This document shows positions 3 through 32,041 of a stretch of DNA of 35,409 nucleotides, in pieces (within the stretch, counting starts at the first letter, position 1; each line of letters starts with the position of its first letter). This stretch comes from a virus. The notes beneath the pieces were generated by a model. That model saw nothing but the letters and a program-made list of their open reading frames with translations, was not told the origin of the DNA and ran no database searches. The position numbers were made by a program, and so were the translations under genes. Location: the IMG/VR virus record IMGVR_UViG_3300008107_000992, positions 1 through 35,409 of that record, one strand, 5' to 3'.

Positions 3-647
3 TCGATCAAGGCCTCGCTTCCGGCCGCCAAGTGGTCGGCCCAGTGGCAGCAGCAACCGACGACTTCCGACGCTGGCATCATCCGCAAGGACTGGTGGCG
101 CATGTGGGAGAAGGAAGACATCCCGCGTCTGGACTATGTCCTTCAGGCCTACGATACCGCGTTCTCAAAGAAGGAGAGCGCCGACTATTCGGCGATCACG
201 ACGTGGGGAATCTTCAAGCCGGAGATAGATGGCCCCGACCACATCATCCTGCTCGACGCGCAGCGAGGCCGATGGAGCTTTCCGGAGCTCAAACAGGTTG
301 CCTTCGACGAGCACGAGTACTGGCAGCCTGACATGGTTCTCGTTGAAGCCAAGGCCACAGGTCAGCCGCTCATTGACGAGTTGCGCCTGAAGAACATCCC
401 TGCCCTTGGCTTTTCGCCGGGCGGCCGGGGCGGCGGGCGCGACAAGGTGAGCCGGATGCACATGGTTGCTCCGCTCTTCGAGGCGGGTATGGTATGGGCA
501 CCGGAGGCCAAGAGTTTCTCGGAAGACGTGATCGAAGAAGTGACTTCTTTTCCCAATGGCGATCATGACGACTTTTGTGATAGCATGACGCTGGCTCTAA
601 TGCGTTTCCGTCAGATGGCGATCATGACGACTTTTGTGATAGCATGA
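3..647 (+). CDS. terL: Terminase large subunit, C-terminal nuclease part (partial, frameshifted 3' end)
   Basis: Packaging motor subunit whose C-terminal RNase H-like nuclease cuts concatemeric DNA. The frame is open from base 3, so the N-terminal ATPase lies upstream of the window. Early residues contain SAQWQQQPT and a tryptophan-rich IIRKDWW stretch, followed by QAYDTAFSKKESADYSA, the usual first nuclease aspartate region, and a late NGDHDDFCDSM stretch with the last catalytic acidic residues. The final ten residues (MAIMTTFVIA) are not native: they come from reading the second copy of a 59-bp tandem duplication (556-673) out of frame. Without one copy the frame runs to a TGA at 743-745 that shares its A with the portal ATG. 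The nuclease motifs lie before the break, so activity might survive. Family call is strong; whether the frameshift is biological is unknown. Confidence 0.9.
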   Translation, partial: SIKASLPAAKWSAQWQQQPTTSDAGIIRKDWWRMWEKEDIPRLDYVLQAYDTAFSKKESADYSAITTWGIFKPEIDGPDHIILLDAQRGRWSFPELKQVAFDEHEYWQPDMVLVEAKATGQPLIDELRLKNIPALGFSPGGRGGGRDKVSRMHMVAPLFEAGMVWAPEAKSFSEDVIEEVTSFPNGDHDDFCDSMTLALMRFRQMAIMTTFVIA

Positions 648-673
648 CGCTGGCTCTAATGCGTTTCCGTCAG
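556..673 (+). repeat. Perfect 59-bp tandem duplication inside terL
   Basis: Bases 556-614 and 615-673 are identical by eye, directly adjacent 59-base copies starting ATGGCGATCATGACG and ending TTTCCGTCAG. Because 59 is not a multiple of three, the second copy shifts the terminase frame and brings a stop at 645-647. Removing one copy restores an open frame into the portal junction, so the single-copy form is ancestral. Confidence 0.97.
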
Positions 674-13546: not shown

Positions 13547-13563
13547 TCTAACGGAGGTGCCGG

Positions 13564-13809
13564 ATGTTAGGTTTCTATCCTCTGTCAGGTGCTCCGCTTA
13601 GCTCGTCCGAGCAAATCGACTCTGGCGGAACCAACGTAAGCGTTTCCCTCACTGGTCTTTCTGCGACAGGCCAGACTGGGACAGTCGATGTCACGGGTTC
13701 CGCCGTTGTTCCTGTCACTGGTCTTTCTGCGACTGGGCAGGCTGGGACCGTTGATGTTTTAGGTTCCTGTAACTGGTCTTTCTGCGACAGGCCAGACTGG
13801 GACCGTTGA
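13564..13809 (+). CDS. N-terminal fragment of VTGLSATG-repeat protein
   Basis: This is what would be translated as the sequence stands: MLGFYPLSGAPLSSSEQIDSGGTNVSVSLTGLSATG, two repeats of VTGLSATGQ[T/A]GTVDV, then 17 residues of out-of-frame nonsense (LGSCNWSFCDRPDWDR region) before TGA at 13807. The start is preceded by a good CGGAGG ribosome binding site at about 13552-13557. The frame breaks near 13765 where an 11-base stretch is missing compared with sister repeats. See the whole-gene entry 13564-14619. Confidence 0.6.
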   Translation: MLGFYPLSGAPLSSSEQIDSGGTNVSVSLTGLSATGQTGTVDVTGSAVVPVTGLSATGQAGTVDVLGSCNWSFCDRPDWDR

Positions 13810-14427
13810 TGTCACGGGTTCCGCCGTTGTTCCTGTCACTGGAGTTTTTGCCACTGGGCAGACTGGGACCGTTGATGTCACGGGTTCCGCCGTTGTTCCT
13901 GTCACTGGAGTTTTTGCCACTGGGCAGACTGGGACCGTTGATGTTTTAGTCGCCGTCGACGTCTCTGTCCCTGTCACTGGTCTTTCTGCGACTGGGCAGG
14001 CTGGGACAGTCGTTGTCTTAATCCCCGTCGACGTCTCTGTCCCTGTCACTGGTCTTTCTGCGACAGGCCAGACTGGGACAGTCGATGTCACGGGTTCCGC
14101 CGTTGTTCCTGTCACTGGTCTTTCTGCGACTGGGCAGGCTGGGACCGTTGATGTTTTAGCGTCGACGTCTCTGTCCTCGTCACTGGTCTTTCTGCGACTG
14201 GGCAGGCTGGGACCGTTGATGTCACGGGTTCCGCCGTTGTTCCTGTCACTGGTCTTTCTGCGACAGGGCAGACTGGGACCGTCGTTGTCTCAATCCCCGC
14301 CGTTGTTCCTGTCACTGGTCTTTCTGCGACGGGGCTAGTCGGGACTGTTTCCATAACAAGTGACATCAATGTCGATGTCCGTGTTACGGGGCTTTCCGCC
14401 GCAGGTGCCGTTGGGACGGTCCTTGTT
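13648..14427 (+). repeat. Twelve-unit coding repeat array (66/72 bp units)
   Basis: Unit starts at 13648, 13714, 13769, 13835, 13901, 13973, 14045, 14111, 14179, 14245, 14311 and 14383. Spacings are 66, 55, 66, 66, 72, 72, 66, 68, 66, 66 and 72. The 66-base type encodes VTGSAVVP between units and the 72-base type encodes a longer VDVSVP-containing linker. Many units are nearly identical at DNA level; the last is the most diverged. The 55 and 68 spacings break the frame and cancel each other. Confidence 0.93.
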
Positions 14428-14628
14428 TGGGGGGAGGTTGTCCCAGCCCCACTGACGAACTGGAACTCGCTTACTCCCGCCACCTTAGCCTCTTGGAGTG
14501 ACATTTCTCCAAATCCCGAGTCTACTACGTGGACGGAGGTTAACACAGGTGCTATAAATTCATGGACCGAGGTGCAACAAGCACCGCCCAGCACCTCTTG
14601 GACAGACATCGCGGCGTAAGGAGGCGAC

Positions 14629-16899
14629 ATGGCCAGCACGTATACAACGAACAGCGGCATTGAGCTCATTGCAAGCGGAGAACAGTCCGGTACTTGGGGC
14701 ACCACGACCAACACCAACTTGTCAATCATTGACCGACTGGTGAACGGGGTCGGAGCAATCGCGCTTGCAGGAACAACCCACACGCTGACCACCTCTGACG
14801 GAGTTCTTTCGGACGGCCAGTACTCTGTCTTGGTTTTTGGCGGAGCGCCCTCCGGAACCAACACAGTGACGATCTCGCCAAACGACGGGCAGCACGTCTA
14901 CATCGTGTGGAACGTAACCAGCGAAAGCGTGGTTTTGACCCAAGGTTCGGGAGGCAACGTCACTGTAGCCAGCGGCGACACCAAAGTTGTGTACGCCGAC
15001 GGCACTGGTGCAGGGGCCGCGGTCATAGACATCACCGCCAACTTTGCCATGTCGAGCGTCAAGATTACCGGGGGCTCGATCACCGGGATCACCGACCTTG
15101 CTATCGTAGACGGGGGCACTGGCGCGTCGAGCGCCTCGGCCGCTCGGACCAACCTTGGTCTCGCCATCGGCACTGACGTGCAGGCTTACGACGCCGAGTT
15201 GACCGCCATCGCAGGTCTGGCGGTGACCGATGGGAACATCATTGTCGGCAACGGCACGACGTGGGTTGCCGAGAGCGGCGCGACGGCCAGAACCTCTCTT
15301 GGTCTTTCCATCGGGACGAACGTGCAGGCCTACGACGCCGGGCTGCAATCGATCTCAGGACTGACGACGTCTGCCGATCAGATGATCTATACGACGGCTC
15401 TGGATACCTACGCCACCACAGGTCTTACGGCTGCAGGTCGCGCCATTCTGGATGACGCCGACGCTTCGGCCCAGCGCACAACCCTCGGCCTCGCCATTGG
15501 AACTGACGTGCAGGCCTACGATGCGGGACTGCAGTCCATCTCCGGACTGACGACGTCCGCCGATCAGATGATCTATACGACGGCCCTCGACACCTACGCC
15601 ACCACAGGTCTTACGGCTGCAGGCCGCGCCCTTCTGGATGACGCCGACGCTTCGGCCCAGCGCACGACCCTCGGCCTCGCTATCGGTACGAACGTGCAGG
15701 CCTACGACGCCGAACTAACCGCCATCGCAGCTCTTGCGGTTACCGACGGCAACATCATTGTCGGCGACGGCACGACGTGGGTGGCCGAAAGCGGCGCGAC
15801 GGCGCGAACCTCTCTTGGTCTCGGCACCATGGCGACTCAGGCTGCGTCGTCTGTGACGATCACTGGCGGCTCTATCACGGGCATTACCGATCTGGCCGTT
15901 GCTGACGGTGGAACAGGGGCGTCTGACGCTGGCACAGCTCGGACCAACCTCGGCCTTGCCATCGGCACGGACGTGCAGGCCTACGACGCGGGGTTGCAGT
16001 CGATCTCTGGGCTGACGACATCTGCCAACCAGATGATCTATACGACGGCGCTGGACACCTACGCCACTACGGGGCTCACTGCGGCTGGTCGCGCCATTCT
16101 TGATGACGCCGACGCTTCGGCCCAGCGCACGACCCTTGGCCTCGCCATTGGCACAGACGTACAGGCCTACGACGCTGAGCTGACCGCTATCGCGGGTCTT
16201 GCGGTTACCGACGGAAACATCATTGTCGGCAACGGTACGACTTGGGTTGCCGAGAGCGGAGCGACGGCACGAACCTCTCTGGGTTTGGGGGCGGGGGACA
16301 GCCCGACCTTCACCGCGGTTACTGCCGGGCAGGTCGATGTCACGGCGCAGGGCGACGTGCGCTTCCAAGACGCGGCCGGGGGACAGTTCGTCGCGCTGCA
16401 AGGCCCCGGCACTGTCGCCACCAGCTACACTCTGTCGCTGCCCACGGCCGACGGCACCAACGGTCAGGCTGTTGTGACGAGTGGCTCCGGCCAGCTTTCT
16501 TTCTCTGACGTGGTCACTCCTACGGGGACTCAGACGCTAACCAACAAGACGCTCACCGATCCTGCGATTATCGGCGCAATCTTGGAAGACATCTTTACGA
16601 TCACGGATGGGGCCGCCTTCGAAATCGACCCCGGCAATGGAACCATTCAGTTGATCACACTTGGCGCAAGCCGCACCCCCAAAGCCACAAACTTTGCCAA
16701 CGGCGAATCTGTGACGCTGATGGTGAATGACGGCTCGGCCTACACCCTAACGTGGACCGACGCGACTTTCGGCGGCTCTGGCGTGGTGTGGAAAACCGAC
16801 GGCGGCACCGCGCCGACGTTGAATACGACGGGGTATACCATTATGGTTTTGTTCAAAGTTGGTGGTCAGGTCTACGGCGCTCGGGTAGGTAACGCATAA
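14629..16899 (+). CDS. Tail fibre protein with long repeats
   Basis: 756 residues. N-terminal MASTYTTNSGIELIASGEQSGTWGTTTNTNLSIIDRLVNGVGAIALAG is a widespread phage fibre start (GEQSGTWGxTTNTNL). The centre has six copies of a GT[D/N]VQAYDA[E/G]L block, alternating with TAIAGLAVTDGNIIVGNGTTWVAESGATARTSLGLG and LQSISGLTTSADQMIYTTALDTYATTGLTAAGRA[I/L]LDDADASAQRTTLGL. A C-terminal part begins near GDSPTFTAVTAGQVDVT and ends with a beta-rich domain (VWKTDGGTAPTLNTTGYTIMVLFK). It binds host surface and probably forms trimers. Strong ribosome binding site (TAAGGAGGCGAC); the stop overlaps the next gene's ATG. Confidence 0.85.
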   Translation: MASTYTTNSGIELIASGEQSGTWGTTTNTNLSIIDRLVNGVGAIALAGTTHTLTTSDGVLSDGQYSVLVFGGAPSGTNTVTISPNDGQHVYIVWNVTSESVVLTQGSGGNVTVASGDTKVVYADGTGAGAAVIDITANFAMSSVKITGGSITGITDLAIVDGGTGASSASAARTNLGLAIGTDVQAYDAELTAIAGLAVTDGNIIVGNGTTWVAESGATARTSLGLSIGTNVQAYDAGLQSISGLTTSADQMIYTTALDTYATTGLTAAGRAILDDADASAQRTTLGLAIGTDVQAYDAGLQSISGLTTSADQMIYTTALDTYATTGLTAAGRALLDDADASAQRTTLGLAIGTNVQAYDAELTAIAALAVTDGNIIVGDGTTWVAESGATARTSLGLGTMATQAASSVTITGGSITGITDLAVADGGTGASDAGTARTNLGLAIGTDVQAYDAGLQSISGLTTSANQMIYTTALDTYATTGLTAAGRAILDDADASAQRTTLGLAIGTDVQAYDAELTAIAGLAVTDGNIIVGNGTTWVAESGATARTSLGLGAGDSPTFTAVTAGQVDVTAQGDVRFQDAAGGQFVALQGPGTVATSYTLSLPTADGTNGQAVVTSGSGQLSFSDVVTPTGTQTLTNKTLTDPAIIGAILEDIFTITDGAAFEIDPGNGTIQLITLGASRTPKATNFANGESVTLMVNDGSAYTLTWTDATFGGSGVVWKTDGGTAPTLNTTGYTIMVLFKVGGQVYGARVGNA
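15148..16290 (+). repeat. Long near-identical coding repeats in tail fibre
   Basis: Blocks encoding GTDVQAYDAGLQSISGLTTSADQMIYTTALDTYATTGLTAAGRAILDDADAS occur three times (starting near 15313, 15502 and 15964) with close DNA similarity, and the AELTAIAGLAVTDGNIIVGNG block occurs three times (near 15190, 15709 and 16171). Such repeats are prone to recombination and to assembly error. Boundaries are approximate. Confidence 0.85.
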
Positions 16900-18995
16900 T
16901 GATTGGTGGAAAGCTTATCAGCGCCACTTCGGGTGTGGGCACAGCGCCAAAGGCCATCGCCCTGAGTGTTGCCGAGTTTCCGGGCGTCGTCGCCTACTCG
17001 TGGAACATCAGCGGATTTGGTGGGCTGTACAGCACCCCGACCACGCTGCCCACAGGCGCTGGAAACGGCATTGCCTTTAGCCCTGACGGCCTCTCGGTGG
17101 CCGTGGCCCATCTCACAACACCCTTTGTCACGGCCTACCCTTGGTCGGGGTCCGGGTTTGGAACCAAGTATTCCAACCCGGCTACCCTACCCACGGGAAA
17201 TGGAAACGGCGTGACTTTCAGTCCCGACGGCTCGGCGATAGTTGTGGCGCACGAGACCACCCCATTTGTCACGGCCTACCCTTGGTCGGTTTCTGGGTTT
17301 GGGACCAAGTACGCCAACCCGGCTACCCTACCCACGGGCGCTGGTAAGATTGCCTCCTTCAGCCCTGATGGGTCGGCAATCGCCGTGGCCCACAGCACCA
17401 CCCCATTTGTCACGGCCTACCCTTGGTCGGGGTCCGGGTTTGGAACCAAGTATTCCAACCCGGCTACCCTCCCCACGGGAAATGGAAACGGCGTGACTTT
17501 CAGTCCCGACGGCTCGGCCCTAGCCGTAGCTCACACCACCACCCCCTTTGTCACGGTCTATCCTTGGTCCGGCTCTGGGTTTGGGACCAAGTACGCCGAC
17601 CCGGCTACCCTGCCGACAGGGGTTGGAGAGGGTGTCTCTTTTCATCCCGAGGGCTCAGCAATCGCCGTGGCCCACAATACCACCCCCTTTGTCACGGTCT
17701 ACCCTTGGTCCGGCTCTGGGTTTGGAACCAAGTATGCCGATCCGGGAACCCTGCCGACGGGGAACGCTTCTGACGTCGCTTTTGGCCCAGACGGCTCGGC
17801 GATAGTTGTGGCCCACAGCACCACCCCATTTGTCACGGCCTACCCTTGGTCTGGCTCTGGATTTGGGGCCAAGCACGCCAACCCGTCTACCCTGCCCTCT
17901 GCCTCTGCTTTTGGCGTGGCCTTCTCTATTGTTGGCTCTCCGCAAACGGCATACACGGAGTACGTGGCGATAGCCAACGTTACACCAAATAGCACAACTC
18001 CACCGTTTCTTGGTATTTTTTCGGTTTATCCATGGTCTAGCTCAGACGGGTTTGGGACTAAGTACTCCGACCCAGCTACATTTCCGACGGGAACAGGGCA
18101 GGGGGTAGCGTTTAGCCCCGATGGCAGCGTCTTGGCGGTGGGGTATGGCACTACTTCCCCCCGTGTCTTGGCTTACCCTTGGTCAGGGGCTGGATTTGGG
18201 ACTAAGTATTCGGACCCTGCCTCGGTACCCACCTCAACCTGTTATGATGTGGCTTTTAACCCGGAAGGAACTGCCATAGCTTTGGCTCTTGACTCCTCTC
18301 CGTATGTTTCCGTCTATGCTTGGTCAAGCTCTGGGTTCGGAACTAGGTATTCCAACCCGGCAAGCCTCCCAGCAGGCACCCCCCTTGGGGTGACTTTTAA
18401 TCCGGCGGGAACTGCCATAGCCTTGGCCCATCTCACAACACCCTTTGTCACGGCCTACCCTTGGTCGGGGTCCGGGTTTGGAACCAAGTATGCCAACCCG
18501 TCGACGCTTCCAACAGGCACTGGCCGCGGCCTTGGGTTTTCCACTGACGGCTCTCAACTGGCTGTGGCCCACGACACTTCTCCGTTCTTCTCTGTTTACG
18601 CTTTCTCAATCTCTGGGTTTGGGGCTAAGACTGCTAACCCCTCTGTTCTTGCAACGGCTGCTGGTACAGGTATTAAGTACAGTCCTCAGGGTCCAAATGC
18701 CTTGTTCGTCTCAATTAGTGGTCCTCCGTACATTCTAGGCTACACGAGTGCCAGCGGCTCAAAGTTCTCAGACCCTGTCTCTCTGCCACCGGGCGTCGGG
18801 CAAGACCTTGCCTTCAGCCCAAACGGCTGGGCCGTGGCCCTGGCCTGCGGTACGACACCCTTTTTATTGGCCTATAAACGGTCACTTAACGACAGCGCCG
18901 GGCTGCAAGGGGGATTTGGTACTCAGTTCTCTAGCCCGAGCACCTTGCCTGCGGGGGCAGGCAGAGGCGTTATCTTTGGCCGCACCCCCGCCTAA
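16899..18995 (+). CDS. Fourteen-repeat beta-propeller-like protein (WD40/PD40-like)
   Basis: 698 residues made almost entirely of tandem units of about 47 residues, each with TTPFVTAYPWSGSGFGTKYxNPATLPTG followed by GVxFSPDGSAIAVAH. The FSPDG-xxxAVAH pattern is that of WD40/PD40-type propeller blades. I count fourteen repeats; 2, 4, 5 and 6 are closest, 12-14 are diverged, and 7 and 8 carry insertions. Fourteen equals two seven-bladed propellers, but the fold count is inference. N-terminal cap is MIGGKLISATSGVGTAPKAIAL. The gene follows the tail fibre (TAATG overlap) and precedes the tail-assembly genes, so a virion role, e.g. receptor-binding or fibre-tip, is likely. Propellers of this kind are not standard in podovirus tails. 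Confidence 0.8.
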   Translation: MIGGKLISATSGVGTAPKAIALSVAEFPGVVAYSWNISGFGGLYSTPTTLPTGAGNGIAFSPDGLSVAVAHLTTPFVTAYPWSGSGFGTKYSNPATLPTGNGNGVTFSPDGSAIVVAHETTPFVTAYPWSVSGFGTKYANPATLPTGAGKIASFSPDGSAIAVAHSTTPFVTAYPWSGSGFGTKYSNPATLPTGNGNGVTFSPDGSALAVAHTTTPFVTVYPWSGSGFGTKYADPATLPTGVGEGVSFHPEGSAIAVAHNTTPFVTVYPWSGSGFGTKYADPGTLPTGNASDVAFGPDGSAIVVAHSTTPFVTAYPWSGSGFGAKHANPSTLPSASAFGVAFSIVGSPQTAYTEYVAIANVTPNSTTPPFLGIFSVYPWSSSDGFGTKYSDPATFPTGTGQGVAFSPDGSVLAVGYGTTSPRVLAYPWSGAGFGTKYSDPASVPTSTCYDVAFNPEGTAIALALDSSPYVSVYAWSSSGFGTRYSNPASLPAGTPLGVTFNPAGTAIALAHLTTPFVTAYPWSGSGFGTKYANPSTLPTGTGRGLGFSTDGSQLAVAHDTSPFFSVYAFSISGFGAKTANPSVLATAAGTGIKYSPQGPNALFVSISGPPYILGYTSASGSKFSDPVSLPPGVGQDLAFSPNGWAVALACGTTPFLLAYKRSLNDSAGLQGGFGTQFSSPSTLPAGAGRGVIFGRTPA
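17104..18491 (+). repeat. Propeller gene repeats, 141-bp unit with near-identical blocks
   Basis: Unit period is 141 bases (47 codons), e.g. TTTGTCACGG at 17124, 17265 and 17406. Bases 17124-17236 match 17406-17518 at all but one position. Bases 17104-17171 are identical to 18424-18491, nine units apart, although intervening units differ. This indicates recent copying or conversion between repeats. Confidence 0.88.
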
Positions 18996-26477: not shown

Positions 26478-27857
26478 ATGTCAGGTGTCTACAACCGCAA
26501 GCTCTTCCGTCAAAGCGGCGCTCGCGACGAACTCCGCAAGATGGGCGGGATCATGTCCAGCTCCGAGGAGCTGATGCGCGCGGCACTGATGACCGGGATG
26601 CAAGCTCCGGGGCCCTCGGACCTTGGGCCTATGGCCATGCCGCAGCAGCCTGTGATTGGCATGCCCGCTCCGCCCGTTATGCAGCCGCAGCAGCCGATGG
26701 TGGAGCCGCAGCAACCCATGGACATGGGGATGCAGCAGCCGATGGATTCCGGATATGGAATGCAGCCGTCGCAGCCCATGATGCAGCAGCAACCGATCCA
26801 GCCGCCAATTGCTGAGCCTGCCTACATGCCGCCGCAGATGCCGCAATCTTTGCAGATGCCGCAGGCGCAGCCCCCGGGGTTTTTCCTCGGCGGCCTGATC
26901 AACCTCGCCCCGACGATGGGTTCCGCAGAGGCCTCTGAAGACCCGGCCGCTCCTCCCGCTCCGGCAGCCCGGCCGAACCCTGCTCGCGCCATAGGCATCG
27001 GGCCTTCGACCGTCCGGTCGGCTGAGCCTGTCGATATCGGGGCGACCGCTGGTACTGTCGTTGTGCCGCCAAAGGTGAATGCGATTGGCGTGGACGCATT
27101 TGTGGAGCGGATCGGAGCGAAACTCGATACGGCCTCCCCGGAGGAAGTGGGCGACGACATCGTGAAAACCGCGGTCGAAGAACCCACGGGTGACCTGCGG
27201 TTCGACCTCGCCAAGACCCTAGAAGAGATGACGGGCGATCTGTCGGCCTACGAGAAAGACATCGACACCCTGAACCGCGGCATCATTGGTGCGGCGATTG
27301 CGGCCGGAACCTCCGCACGTGCCACGGAGAATATCGCCAAGGGTATGTTGGTCGGTATGGAAAGCGTCAAGGCGACAGAAGAGCGCCGGGCAGCCGATGC
27401 TCAGGCCTTGCAGCTCAAGGCGCTGGAGGTTCGTGCTGCGGAGCAGGCTGCCAGAGAAGCTGAGATCAAGGCCGAGGAGAAAGCTAAGACCGAGGCCAAA
27501 GCTAAGCTGGCAGAGGATGTTCGAAGCGCGTATTCGAGAGCGCGGGATTCCATCATTGAGTCCGGCATCAACAACGTCGGCAAGCTCCCGGACGGCATGA
27601 CCCTGACGGAGTACGCCGAGTCGTTTGGTCGTTCTCAGGCTGAAGCCACGTATGGCAAGGAAGCCGTTGACGCCATCCTCGGGACCCCCGCCGCCCCTCA
27701 AAGCACTCTTAGTGCCGAGGACAAAGCCGAGCTCTTGAACGAGGCCAAGGTTAAAATCGGAAAGAACCCCGCCCTGAGAACTGCGGTCAGGGACAGGCTT
27801 TCCAAGGATTTCGGCATCACGCCGGAAGAACTTGATGCGGTTCTGGGGGGCTCTTGA
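26478..27857 (+). CDS. Internal virion protein with Met/Gln/Pro-rich region (459 aa)
   Basis: N-terminal MSGVYNRKLFRQSGARDELRKMGGIMSSSEELMRAALM, a low-complexity Met/Gln/Pro stretch (about residues 40-135, PMAMPQQPVIGMPAPPVMQPQQP onward), then a conserved-looking domain FVERIGAKLDTASPEEVGDDIVKTAVEEPTGDL and a helical coiled-coil part (RRAADAQALQLKALEVRAAEQAAREAEIKAEEKAKTE). The make-up resembles other podoviral internal virion proteins. It lies between two ejection proteins and ends by overlapping the next gene's start. Exact role not visible. Confidence 0.75.
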   Translation: MSGVYNRKLFRQSGARDELRKMGGIMSSSEELMRAALMTGMQAPGPSDLGPMAMPQQPVIGMPAPPVMQPQQPMVEPQQPMDMGMQQPMDSGYGMQPSQPMMQQQPIQPPIAEPAYMPPQMPQSLQMPQAQPPGFFLGGLINLAPTMGSAEASEDPAAPPAPAARPNPARAIGIGPSTVRSAEPVDIGATAGTVVVPPKVNAIGVDAFVERIGAKLDTASPEEVGDDIVKTAVEEPTGDLRFDLAKTLEEMTGDLSAYEKDIDTLNRGIIGAAIAAGTSARATENIAKGMLVGMESVKATEERRAADAQALQLKALEVRAAEQAAREAEIKAEEKAKTEAKAKLAEDVRSAYSRARDSIIESGINNVGKLPDGMTLTEYAESFGRSQAEATYGKEAVDAILGTPAAPQSTLSAEDKAELLNEAKVKIGKNPALRTAVRDRLSKDFGITPEELDAVLGGS

Positions 27858-30800
27858 TGGGGAAGTTCAGCGGCGTTTTTGACGACCTCGAACCCGATAG
27901 CAGCAAGCAGTTCTATGACGACACCGCCCTCGGCGAGATCGGAGAAGGTATTGTCTCCGGCGCTATCGGCATCGGTGAGGGTGTGCTTGGCCTCGGGGCC
28001 ATGGCCGTCGACGTTGTTGCTGACACCAACTACGGGGATCAAGTCACGCAGAGGGCAGAAGCTTTGCGCGACGCCCTCGGCGTTGACCCGGAAGGTTTCC
28101 TTGGCAAGGGTGCCGAGATCGTTACCCAGTTCGTGGTCCCCGGCCTCGGGGCTGCCGCGAAGGTGAACAGCCTTGCCAAGGCCGCTCGCGCTGCCAAGGC
28201 CGCCAAGGCTGGACCGTGGGCCAAGGCCCCCGGGCCTATGACCAAGGCCGAACGGTTCTCTCTGGCTGCCAAAGAGCTTGCCGCCGCAGGGGCTGTTGAC
28301 GCGGTGGTGTCGACAGACAACACCACCACCCTTGGCGACTGGGTCGAAGCCGGGCCTACGCAGACCGAGGACTTGATCGGTCTGAGCGGCCGCGAGAAGG
28401 CCTTGGCCCGACTGGGCAACCGCCTCAAGATGGGCGTCGAATCCACGGCCCTTGGTGGTCTGGTCCAAGGCGCGCTGGTCGGCGGCGGTCGGACCTTGGG
28501 CCAAACCCGGGTAGCCAAGAACATTGCCGGAGCCGCGAACCGCAAGATCGACGAGATCGGGCAAGGCATCGACAACCTGCTGATCCGCAGGATGACAGCA
28601 CGTCCCGGCAGCGCTGAAGAGCCGGGGGCTTTCATGGGCAGGGTGGCGGACTTCTTGGCCGCCTCTCGGTACCGTGGCTTTCTTCCCGAGCAGGTTGCAA
28701 CGCGTCGCCTTCTTATGGATGGGAAGGTGCAGTCGCAGATCAAACGCGCCAACCTGCTGCTGGGGAAGCTCGACACCGAAATTGACAAGTCCATCAAGGC
28801 TTTTCCCACAGGTCCGGGTGGAAACCTTGACCGCGTAGGTATTATGAACCGGATCGAGTCGTACCTGACAGAGTCTGATCGCGTCGTTAAAGCGCGCGTC
28901 CTCAAGGAGCTCCCAAAGAACATCCGGCAGAACGCAATCCGCATGCGGAAGCATGTCGACGAGCTGTCGCAAGGTGTCCTCAACAGCAACTTCTTGAAAC
29001 AGAACAACCTCGTCACGCGTGACGGGCAGAACCTGAACGACCTCATCGAGCAGAACCTCAACAGCTACCTGCGCCGTCGGTACCGGGTCTTCGAGGACGC
29101 GAAGTATACGCCCACGCAGGATTCGATCAAGGTTGCCAACGACTTCTTCCGCTCCAACCGGAAGGCTGTCGAGCGCGAGCTGACAACGCTGGCTCGGAAG
29201 ACCCCGCAGGACGTCACGGATGACTTCCTGCTCCGGAACGGCTTGAACCGCGTCGGAACGGGCACCGACATGCGGATTGAGCTTGGGGCAAAAGTCACCG
29301 ACGAAACGGTCGACCTCGCTCGCGACGCCTTCTTGAGCCGCTATAGTATCAAAAACCGGGGGAAGATGTTGGGCGGCCGGGTAGCTCGTGACCGTCTTGA
29401 TACCGGAATGTTTGCGACTCGCGAGGCTGTGCCAAAGCCGCTGCGCCAACTGCTTGGCGAGGTAGACGACCCAAGGGAAGCGTACCTCGGCACCATCGCA
29501 GACCTCGCGCAGTTCAACGCTATCGACGACTACTTCGGCACCATTACAAAACTTTCCGAGAGCAACTCAGGAATCGGCAAGCTCTTTGTGAACGGGAATA
29601 ATCTCACCCCGGACCAAGCCAAAGGCCTCCAAGAGCGCGGGTTTGTCAAGCTCGGCGGCGACGACGGAAAGAGCAGCATGGTCGGCGCGGTCGGGGTAGT
29701 TCCCGACGATATCGACAAGATGGTTGGACGGGCGGGATGGGGCAGCCTTGACGGGTACTATGTCCCAGCTCCTATCTACAACAACCTTACAAATGCTGTG
29801 CTTGCAGAAGACAGCATCGGTGCCGCGATCACCAATGCCACCATTGGAACTTTTCTAAAGGCCAAGGGCATCTCTCAGTATACTACCGTCGTCCTGTCCC
29901 CCATCACACAGGTCAAGAACTTCACCACTGCTTTGGCCTTTGCCATGGCGAACGGCAACATTCCAATTATTGGCCGAGGCGGGAGCTTAATCGACTCCGC
30001 GCAGGCCATTTTCGCGAACGTCAGGAACAAGGGTGCTGACGGGATTCTCAAGGACCTCCTAGACGCCCAGCGTCGGGGGGTGGTTGGGACAAACGCGAAG
30101 CTGCGCGAAATCCAAGACCAGCTCAACAAGGGGCTCGGTCTTACGGCCCGCGAACCTCAGAACTTTGCGGAAGCCGTGGCCGGGAAAACCGGGGCGGTTG
30201 GCACCATGGTTGTCGGGGGACTCGGAAAGGTGACAAAGCCTTTCGAGGTTTTTTACCAAGCCGGGGACGACTTCTGGAAGTACTTCAACTACAACGCCGA
30301 GCAGGCGCAAATTCGCCACGCCCTGCGCGGTGCGGACGATGCGACGAAGATCAAGTATCTCACGCGGAACGGGACTGATGTGAGCCCTGAAGTTGCCGAG
30401 GCTATCCGCAAGGGCGACGTAGACATCGACGATCTGATTAAGGATCGAGCTGCACAGATCGTTCGGGACACTGTTCCAAACTACAGTAAGGGTGCTTCTG
30501 ATCTGGTCCGGTTTGGCCGCAAGCTCCCTGTTGGTAACTTCATCACCTTCCCGGCGGAGATGTTCCGGACAGGCTTTAACATCGTGAAGCAGGGTCTGGA
30601 CGACATGGCATCAGAGGTTCCGGGAGTTCAGGCTCGGGGGCAGCAGAGACTTCTTGGCTTCGGCTTCACGACGGCCGTCGTACCCGCGGCCATTTCCGAG
30701 ACAGCTCACCAGATTTCTGGCGTGTCCCGCGAGGAGATGGACGCCTACCAGCGTTCCTTCGCCGCGCCTTGGGAGAAGGGCTCTATCCTTGTCCCGGTCG

Positions 30801-32041
30801 AGCGGACCGAGGACGGGAAGATCAAATACATCAACCTGAGCAACTCGAACCCATACGACATCCTTTCGCGCTTCGCGAACCGTGCTATCAACGAGGCCGA
30901 GAACGCTGCGGCAGAGGGCAAGGACCCGGGTCAGGCTTTGGCCAGTGTCATGGTCGGCACCCTTACGGAACTCTTCTCCCCTTTCCTTTCGGAAGCCATG
31001 CTGACAGAAGCACTTGTCGACATTAGTCTCCGAGACGGCCGCACCAGCACCGGGGCTGAAGTCTACAATCCGCAGGACAGCTTCGGTGACAAGGGTTTCA
31101 AGATGCTCAAGCACGTCTTTGAAACCATAATCCCGGGTTTTGTTCCGGTGAATGTGTCCGGAGGTGAGTTCGAGCCAAGCCGCTTTGCCCGCGGCGTCAT
31201 CGGCAGCCTGTCCCCGGACCTTGTTGATCCGGAGGACAAGCTCGGCCGCGAACGCGAGCTGACGACCGAAATCTTCCGGCAGTTCACCGGGATCACCCCG
31301 ATGGAGTTCGATCCGAAAAAGGGATTGGAGTTCAACGCTTTCCAGATGCAGCAGGCGCAGACGGATGCCAAGCGGATGTTCAACCGCGTGACCGACGACG
31401 CCAACGCCACCTCCGAAACTTTCCTGAACGCCTACGTTGAGGCCAATCAGGCAAAGCTCCGGGTGGATCGCGCGTACTACCGGATGATCAAAGACCTCCA
31501 AACGATGGGCCTTCCCGAGGACGAAATCCGACAGATTCTCAAGAAGAACAACATTGGTGGATTCGGCGCGTTGATGCGGGGCATGTTCGAACCCTTCACC
31601 ATAAGCGAGCGCAACTACCAAGAGATGCAGGACGCGGGAACCATCGACCGCTTCCCGCAGTCTGAAATCCTCGACCTTCGGAACAGCCTTCTCGAGGTTC
31701 CTTTGGAGAGTGTGCCTGACATCGAGGCCCCGAGCGTTGAGGCTCCGGCCACGGGCGGGAAGTTCAAGGGCGTGTTCGACGATCTCGAAGCGCCAGCCAC
31801 GGGCGGGAAGTTCAAGGGCGTGTTCGACGATCTCGAAGCACCGAGTGGCGGGGGCAGCGGCAGCAGATCGACACAAGGGGCGGCACCGCCGCCCCCCGCC
31901 TTCGGTTCAATGCCAGCACCCTCGGCACCACAGCTGCCGACGGCACCAGCGAATAGAGCCTCCTTGTCTCCGAGCCTTCTCGGAGGGGACCTCGCGTCGC
32001 AGATGGCGAATATGGAAATTGCACAGCGCCTCGGGGGTTAG
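27857..32041 (+). CDS. Giant internal virion / ejection protein
   Basis: 1394 residues from ATG 27857 (chosen over TTG 27854; it overlaps the previous stop). Starts MGKFSGVFDDLEPD, then Gly/Ala-rich hydrophobic sequence (about residues 25-60, EGIVSGAIGIGEGVLGLGAMAVDVV) and long helical regions. The segment VLSPITQVKNFTTALAFAMANGN is recognised from large podoviral ejection proteins. C-terminus has two exact copies of GGKFKGVFDDLEAP, a Gly/Ser/Pro-rich linker and SLLGGDLASQMANMEIAQRL, a common C-terminal element. No lytic transglycosylase motif seen. It probably forms the DNA ejection conduit across the envelope, in the place of T7 gp16. It ends overlapping the minus-strand gene by four bases. 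Confidence 0.8.
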   Translation: MGKFSGVFDDLEPDSSKQFYDDTALGEIGEGIVSGAIGIGEGVLGLGAMAVDVVADTNYGDQVTQRAEALRDALGVDPEGFLGKGAEIVTQFVVPGLGAAAKVNSLAKAARAAKAAKAGPWAKAPGPMTKAERFSLAAKELAAAGAVDAVVSTDNTTTLGDWVEAGPTQTEDLIGLSGREKALARLGNRLKMGVESTALGGLVQGALVGGGRTLGQTRVAKNIAGAANRKIDEIGQGIDNLLIRRMTARPGSAEEPGAFMGRVADFLAASRYRGFLPEQVATRRLLMDGKVQSQIKRANLLLGKLDTEIDKSIKAFPTGPGGNLDRVGIMNRIESYLTESDRVVKARVLKELPKNIRQNAIRMRKHVDELSQGVLNSNFLKQNNLVTRDGQNLNDLIEQNLNSYLRRRYRVFEDAKYTPTQDSIKVANDFFRSNRKAVERELTTLARKTPQDVTDDFLLRNGLNRVGTGTDMRIELGAKVTDETVDLARDAFLSRYSIKNRGKMLGGRVARDRLDTGMFATREAVPKPLRQLLGEVDDPREAYLGTIADLAQFNAIDDYFGTITKLSESNSGIGKLFVNGNNLTPDQAKGLQERGFVKLGGDDGKSSMVGAVGVVPDDIDKMVGRAGWGSLDGYYVPAPIYNNLTNAVLAEDSIGAAITNATIGTFLKAKGISQYTTVVLSPITQVKNFTTALAFAMANGNIPIIGRGGSLIDSAQAIFANVRNKGADGILKDLLDAQRRGVVGTNAKLREIQDQLNKGLGLTAREPQNFAEAVAGKTGAVGTMVVGGLGKVTKPFEVFYQAGDDFWKYFNYNAEQAQIRHALRGADDATKIKYLTRNGTDVSPEVAEAIRKGDVDIDDLIKDRAAQIVRDTVPNYSKGASDLVRFGRKLPVGNFITFPAEMFRTGFNIVKQGLDDMASEVPGVQARGQQRLLGFGFTTAVVPAAISETAHQISGVSREEMDAYQRSFAAPWEKGSILVPVERTEDGKIKYINLSNSNPYDILSRFANRAINEAENAAAEGKDPGQALASVMVGTLTELFSPFLSEAMLTEALVDISLRDGRTSTGAEVYNPQDSFGDKGFKMLKHVFETIIPGFVPVNVSGGEFEPSRFARGVIGSLSPDLVDPEDKLGRERELTTEIFRQFTGITPMEFDPKKGLEFNAFQMQQAQTDAKRMFNRVTDDANATSETFLNAYVEANQAKLRVDRAYYRMIKDLQTMGLPEDEIRQILKKNNIGGFGALMRGMFEPFTISERNYQEMQDAGTIDRFPQSEILDLRNSLLEVPLESVPDIEAPSVEAPATGGKFKGVFDDLEAPATGGKFKGVFDDLEAPSGGGSGSRSTQGAAPPPPAFGSMPAPSAPQLPTAPANRASLSPSLLGGDLASQMANMEIAQRLGG
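31748..31843 (+). repeat. 48-bp exact tandem repeat encoding GKFKGVFDDLE
   Basis: Two adjacent 48-base copies (from 31748 and 31796) code for ATGGKFKGVFDDLEAP, differing by only a few third-position changes at the edges. The same motif in the form GKFSGVFDDLE is at the very N-terminus of the same protein, about 1290 residues away. Confidence 0.9.

Follow-up and report, generated by a model that had tools for sequence, protein, structure and literature searches.

The question raised by this locus is whether a phage gene whose reading frame is broken twice inside an array of near-identical repeats, and is regained before the gene ends, is a genetic feature in its own right or a product of sequence assembly. 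The gene occupies positions 13564-14619 of the window (the whole 35,409-nucleotide stretch of viral DNA that was analysed), and consists of an ATG at 13564 placed after a GGAGG, 12 repeat units and a Trp-rich tail. Its parts are laid out as follows.

13553..13557, plus strand: probable ribosome-binding site GGAGG of the repeat gene, from a consensus match only
13564..13809, plus strand: translatable part as assembled, 81 amino acids, with the N-terminus MLGFYPLSGAPLSSS, units 1-2 and a premature TGA at 13807
13651..14439, plus strand: repeat array of 12 units of about 66/72 bases (22/24 amino acids: VTGLSATGQxGTVDVTGSAVVP)
13757..13776, plus strand: break 1, TTTTAG followed by GTTCCTGTAACTGG, the join lying between 13762 and 13763
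13763..14159, plus strand: units 3-8, open in the other frame (+1), with no start codon of their own
14154..14181, plus strand: break 2, TTTTAG followed by CGTCGACG, the join lying between 14159 and 14160
14182..14619, plus strand: units 9-12 and the Trp-rich tail ending WTDIAA, in the original frame

The original prediction was of 12 units with spacings of 55 and 68 among others of 66/72, and a unit-by-unit count reproduced this exactly: the units start at 13651, 13717, 13772, 13838, 13904, 13976, 14048, 14114, 14182, 14248, 14314 and 14386, with successive spacings of 66, 55, 66, 66, 72, 72, 66, 68, 66, 66 and 72. The same array was recovered by TRF with a score of 721, far above chance. Relative to the ATG at 13564, the frames of the units are 0,0,1,1,1,1,1,1,0,0,0,0, which bears out the prediction that the middle of the gene lies off frame and returns before the tail, with units 3-8 in frame 1 and units 9-12 and the Trp-rich tail, down to its TAA at 14617-14619, in frame 0. 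That the two shifts cancel is not beyond chance, because half of all combinations of two out-of-frame changes do so by computation. Translation from the ATG at 13564 halts at the TGA at 13807 after 81 codons. The middle frame (+1) is open from 13763 to 14336 and lacks any ATG, GTG or TTG upstream of 14216, and a GTG at 14572 is the sole start codon of the final frame-0 stretch; ordinary initiation therefore cannot yield three products, nor can the second shift restore expression of the repeat gene as assembled.

The same gene was sought elsewhere in IMG/VR with its N-terminus, which gave 45 loci, and with the neighbouring 87-aa gene, which gave 19, although both scans may leave out records very near the window; more distant relatives were added by scanning with the Trp-rich tail. 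Eight loci (L002-L009) represent the same phage in other samples, and whatever part of the gene each of them covers lies in a single frame. Among these, L003-L007 and L009, assigned to the same species, carry it in a single frame of 242-470 aa, and every complete copy is uninterrupted (448 aa in L003 and L005, 470 aa in L007, 242 aa in L009). The more distant L010/L011 and L016-L023, as well as the relatives from the tail scan, also use a single frame. Three or more units were recognised in 60 distinct contigs, 531 units in all, and no array among them uses two frames; identical contigs from related samples are entered separately in this count. Inspection by eye gave one exception, the distant relative L091, whose array has a single frame break at about 2300-2500; relatives of 299 aa are unbroken. 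The family as a whole can be described by an MLGFxPL N-terminus, 22/24-aa repeats, a Trp-rich tail ending WxxIAA and one continuous frame. The window gene has the repeats, in the form VTGxxATGxxGTVxV, and the tail, but its frame is broken twice as assembled, and the frame is continuous in the other members save L091.

These comparisons bear directly on the proposal that the locus is an on/off or segment-shuffling switch, that is, a phase-variable or frame-switching fibre gene encoding alternative products. Slippage is known to act on tandem repeats that are nearly identical, and such repeats would suit a switch, as would the variation in array length described below. However, 66 and 72 are multiples of 3, so the frame is preserved when whole units are gained or lost, and the off state was found in no close relative among the same-species contigs compared, where on and off states would be expected together. 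The lack of a start codon in the middle frame, the late GTG of the last segment and the position of the downstream frame, out of reach of translation from the start of the gene, also argue against it. With relatives in one frame (the distant L091 excepted), junctions private to the window and no usable starts, the three-product switch is very improbable. Programmed ribosomal frameshifting, +1 and then -1, would restore one long product, and a reading through frames 0, +1 and 0 does give a continuous repeat protein. Yet the shift sites are private to the window contig rather than conserved in relatives, which need no shift, and the second site, read directly as GTTTTAGCG, has no XXXYYYZ heptamer; this explanation is the least credible of those considered.

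The nature of the breaks became clearer when the window gene was parsed into its longest exact matches to relatives. The first 199 bases are identical to the start of L002, L003 and L005-L008, ending in GTTTTAG at 13762. Relatives continue from GTTTTAG with TCGCCGTCGACG, the next base always being T, as TCGCC, whereas the window continues with GTTCCTGTAACTGG, which in L007 sits 155 bases further on. Break 1 is thus a step from array position 199 to 355 of L007, with 155 bases absent and not one base of microhomology. Break 2, at 14159, also falls directly after GTTTTAG, and the TCGC of all relatives is missing there. Neither 24-base junction was found among the other 2.9 million IMG/VR viral contigs. 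The shared position could be read as a real hot spot directly after GTTTTAG, by the palindrome CGTCGACG, at which the gene is repeatedly cut and rejoined, so that intact and truncated forms are mixed in the population; this too is a very doubtful reading.

A more serious alternative is that the window carries a rare but real inactivated allele, in which an out-of-frame deletion arose in the phage population by repeat recombination and a 4-base loss followed, the product being truncated at 81 aa. Among the near-identical phages L003, L005, L007 and L009, the recognised units number 7, 16 or 17, all in frame, and array length thus seems to vary among same-species contigs with near-identical flanks, which makes repeat recombination plausible; the distant L091 is also frame-broken in its array. 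The route would perhaps have begun with in-register recombination, after which 11 bases were lost by slippage between GTTCC copies, as the original prediction had supposed for the first break. The letters fit, since GGTTCCGCCGACGTTCC of relatives gives the observed letters by an 11-base slip, but the precursor does not: GTTTTAGGTTCC followed by GCCG was found in no fetched locus, and GTTTTAGGTTCC is present nowhere but at the junction itself. The slip would consequently need an extra prior recombination to put GTTTTAG before GTTCC. Two independent frame breaks in the array and one in the terminase of the same contig would also be improbable for a living phage lineage. A true inactivated allele is unlikely, though clearly ahead of the switch, the hot spot and the programmed shift.

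The break in the terminase gene, identified by TRF and by comparison with relatives, is the following.

556..673, plus strand: exact 59-base tandem duplication in the gene for the terminase large subunit

This duplication changes the reading frame close to the C-terminal end of the protein (PHROG 38), is absent from the relatives G002 and G007, and has a junction unique to the window contig. The upstream flank of the repeat array, over 5,191 bases, is 99.65-99.71% identical to L073-L075 with no gaps and 99.07% identical to L076 with two single-base gaps, and the downstream flank is 98.5-99.96% identical with no gaps (up to 2,670 bases at 99.96%). With flanks near-identical and essentially free of indels, indels occur almost only in the array. 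Assemblers evidently fail there, as 7 of the 22 related contigs end inside it (L002, L008, L012, L013, L015, L022 and L023).

Other repeats were observed in the same contigs. At 31748-31839 the window has an exact 48-base (16-aa) tandem duplication, in frame, within a 1395-aa ORF at 27854-32041; the L077 alignment breaks at these positions, L077 being about 54 bases shorter there. Some 5.7 copies of a 141-base unit lie in frame at 17100-17897, inside an ORF at 16899-18995 with weak WD40/PD40 beta-propeller matches. Positions 1-1105 of L076 (contig 3300020042_007629) match window 17318-18422 in the orientation opposite to the rest of that contig; this inverted end, foldback-like and located at the 141-base repeats, is perhaps another assembly fault.

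The reading favoured here is that the broken frame is an assembly error in the repeat array of a structural protein gene, to which a probability of about three in four may be given from sequence comparison. The original prediction had named repeat-driven misassembly as one of its two possibilities, and it is preferred because the same contig has the frame-breaking terminase duplication and because 7/22 related contigs stop in the array. The gene would be an intact structural-type repeat protein gene from the tail-fibre region of a freshwater Caudoviricetes phage, the 66/72-base array of which was wrongly joined from several near-identical copies in the window contig, with two out-of-frame joins as the result, each immediately following GTTTTAG. 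We infer that the joins came from assembly (or library chimeras) and not from the phage. Pieces of the window gene match the arrays of relatives at differing places and out of order, as would be seen in a collapsed array. Assembly from k-mers normally depends on a long exact overlap, and the k-mer graph of the relatives does not branch at GTTTTAG once k is 21 or more; the simplest model, in which the breaks mark unitig ends, found no support, since breaks 1 and 2 lie off branch points for realistic k. Because break 1 has no microhomology and GTTTTAG is no branch point, a gap-closing step, chimeric reads or a strain mixture must be assumed. Assembly error leaves unexplained why both breaks fall at one position in the unit. 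If it is the cause, GTTTTAGTCGCC gives the letters expected in reads instead of the broken joins.

As to the protein itself, the gene neighbours are a glycine-rich protein, the 87-aa protein and a tail-fibre protein (PHROG 24210). The glycine-rich neighbour matches Pfam Gly_rich_2 and PHROG 4474, a family without an assigned function, and more weakly a tail-fibre-assembly family. From position only, the repeat protein would appear to have a structural, tail-associated role. The intact homologue of L005 gave no Pfam or PHROGs profile match. An AlphaFold model of the 242-aa homologue has two short strands per unit at a mean pLDDT of 53, too weak for fold claims, and a Foldseek search with it against BFVD returned nothing at E 0.001 or better. 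Literature searches returned nothing specific to the repeat gene.

As a genetic feature, the frame break in the window is most likely not real, and the locus serves as a warning about the false frame breaks that near-identical repeat arrays of phages produce in metagenome contigs; same-species contigs from other samples are a cheap means of exposing them. The real object is a widespread, unannotated tail-region repeat protein that seems to have different numbers of units in phages that are near-identical. These differences would reflect apparent copy-number variation or assembly collapse, as unit counts in repeat arrays are themselves open to assembly error.

The closest counterparts are L003, L005, L007 and L009 (contigs 3300008339_002381, 3300008450_001689, 3300032092_000680 and 3300020042_007629), which share with the window the N-terminus, the repeat, the Trp-rich WTDIAA tail and the neighbours, with near-identical flanks, and differ from it in having one unbroken frame and other unit numbers. 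A distant homologue (about 37% identity) is found in Phage DSL-LC04 (OR003939.1, an annotated complete genome) as WJZ48131.1, a hypothetical protein of 376 aa whose near neighbours include an annotated adaptor and a protein with a chaperone domain. Like the window gene it has VTGVQGTGQVGTVTV-type repeats and a Trp-rich end, WTRIAA; in contrast to it, the N-terminus is Trp/Gly-rich and the frame is unbroken. The tandem BACON-domain repeats of crAssphage are described as a phage protein array grown by domain duplication (PMC6949934), and by that description they would resemble the window gene in being a tandem array and differ from it in the domain that is repeated.
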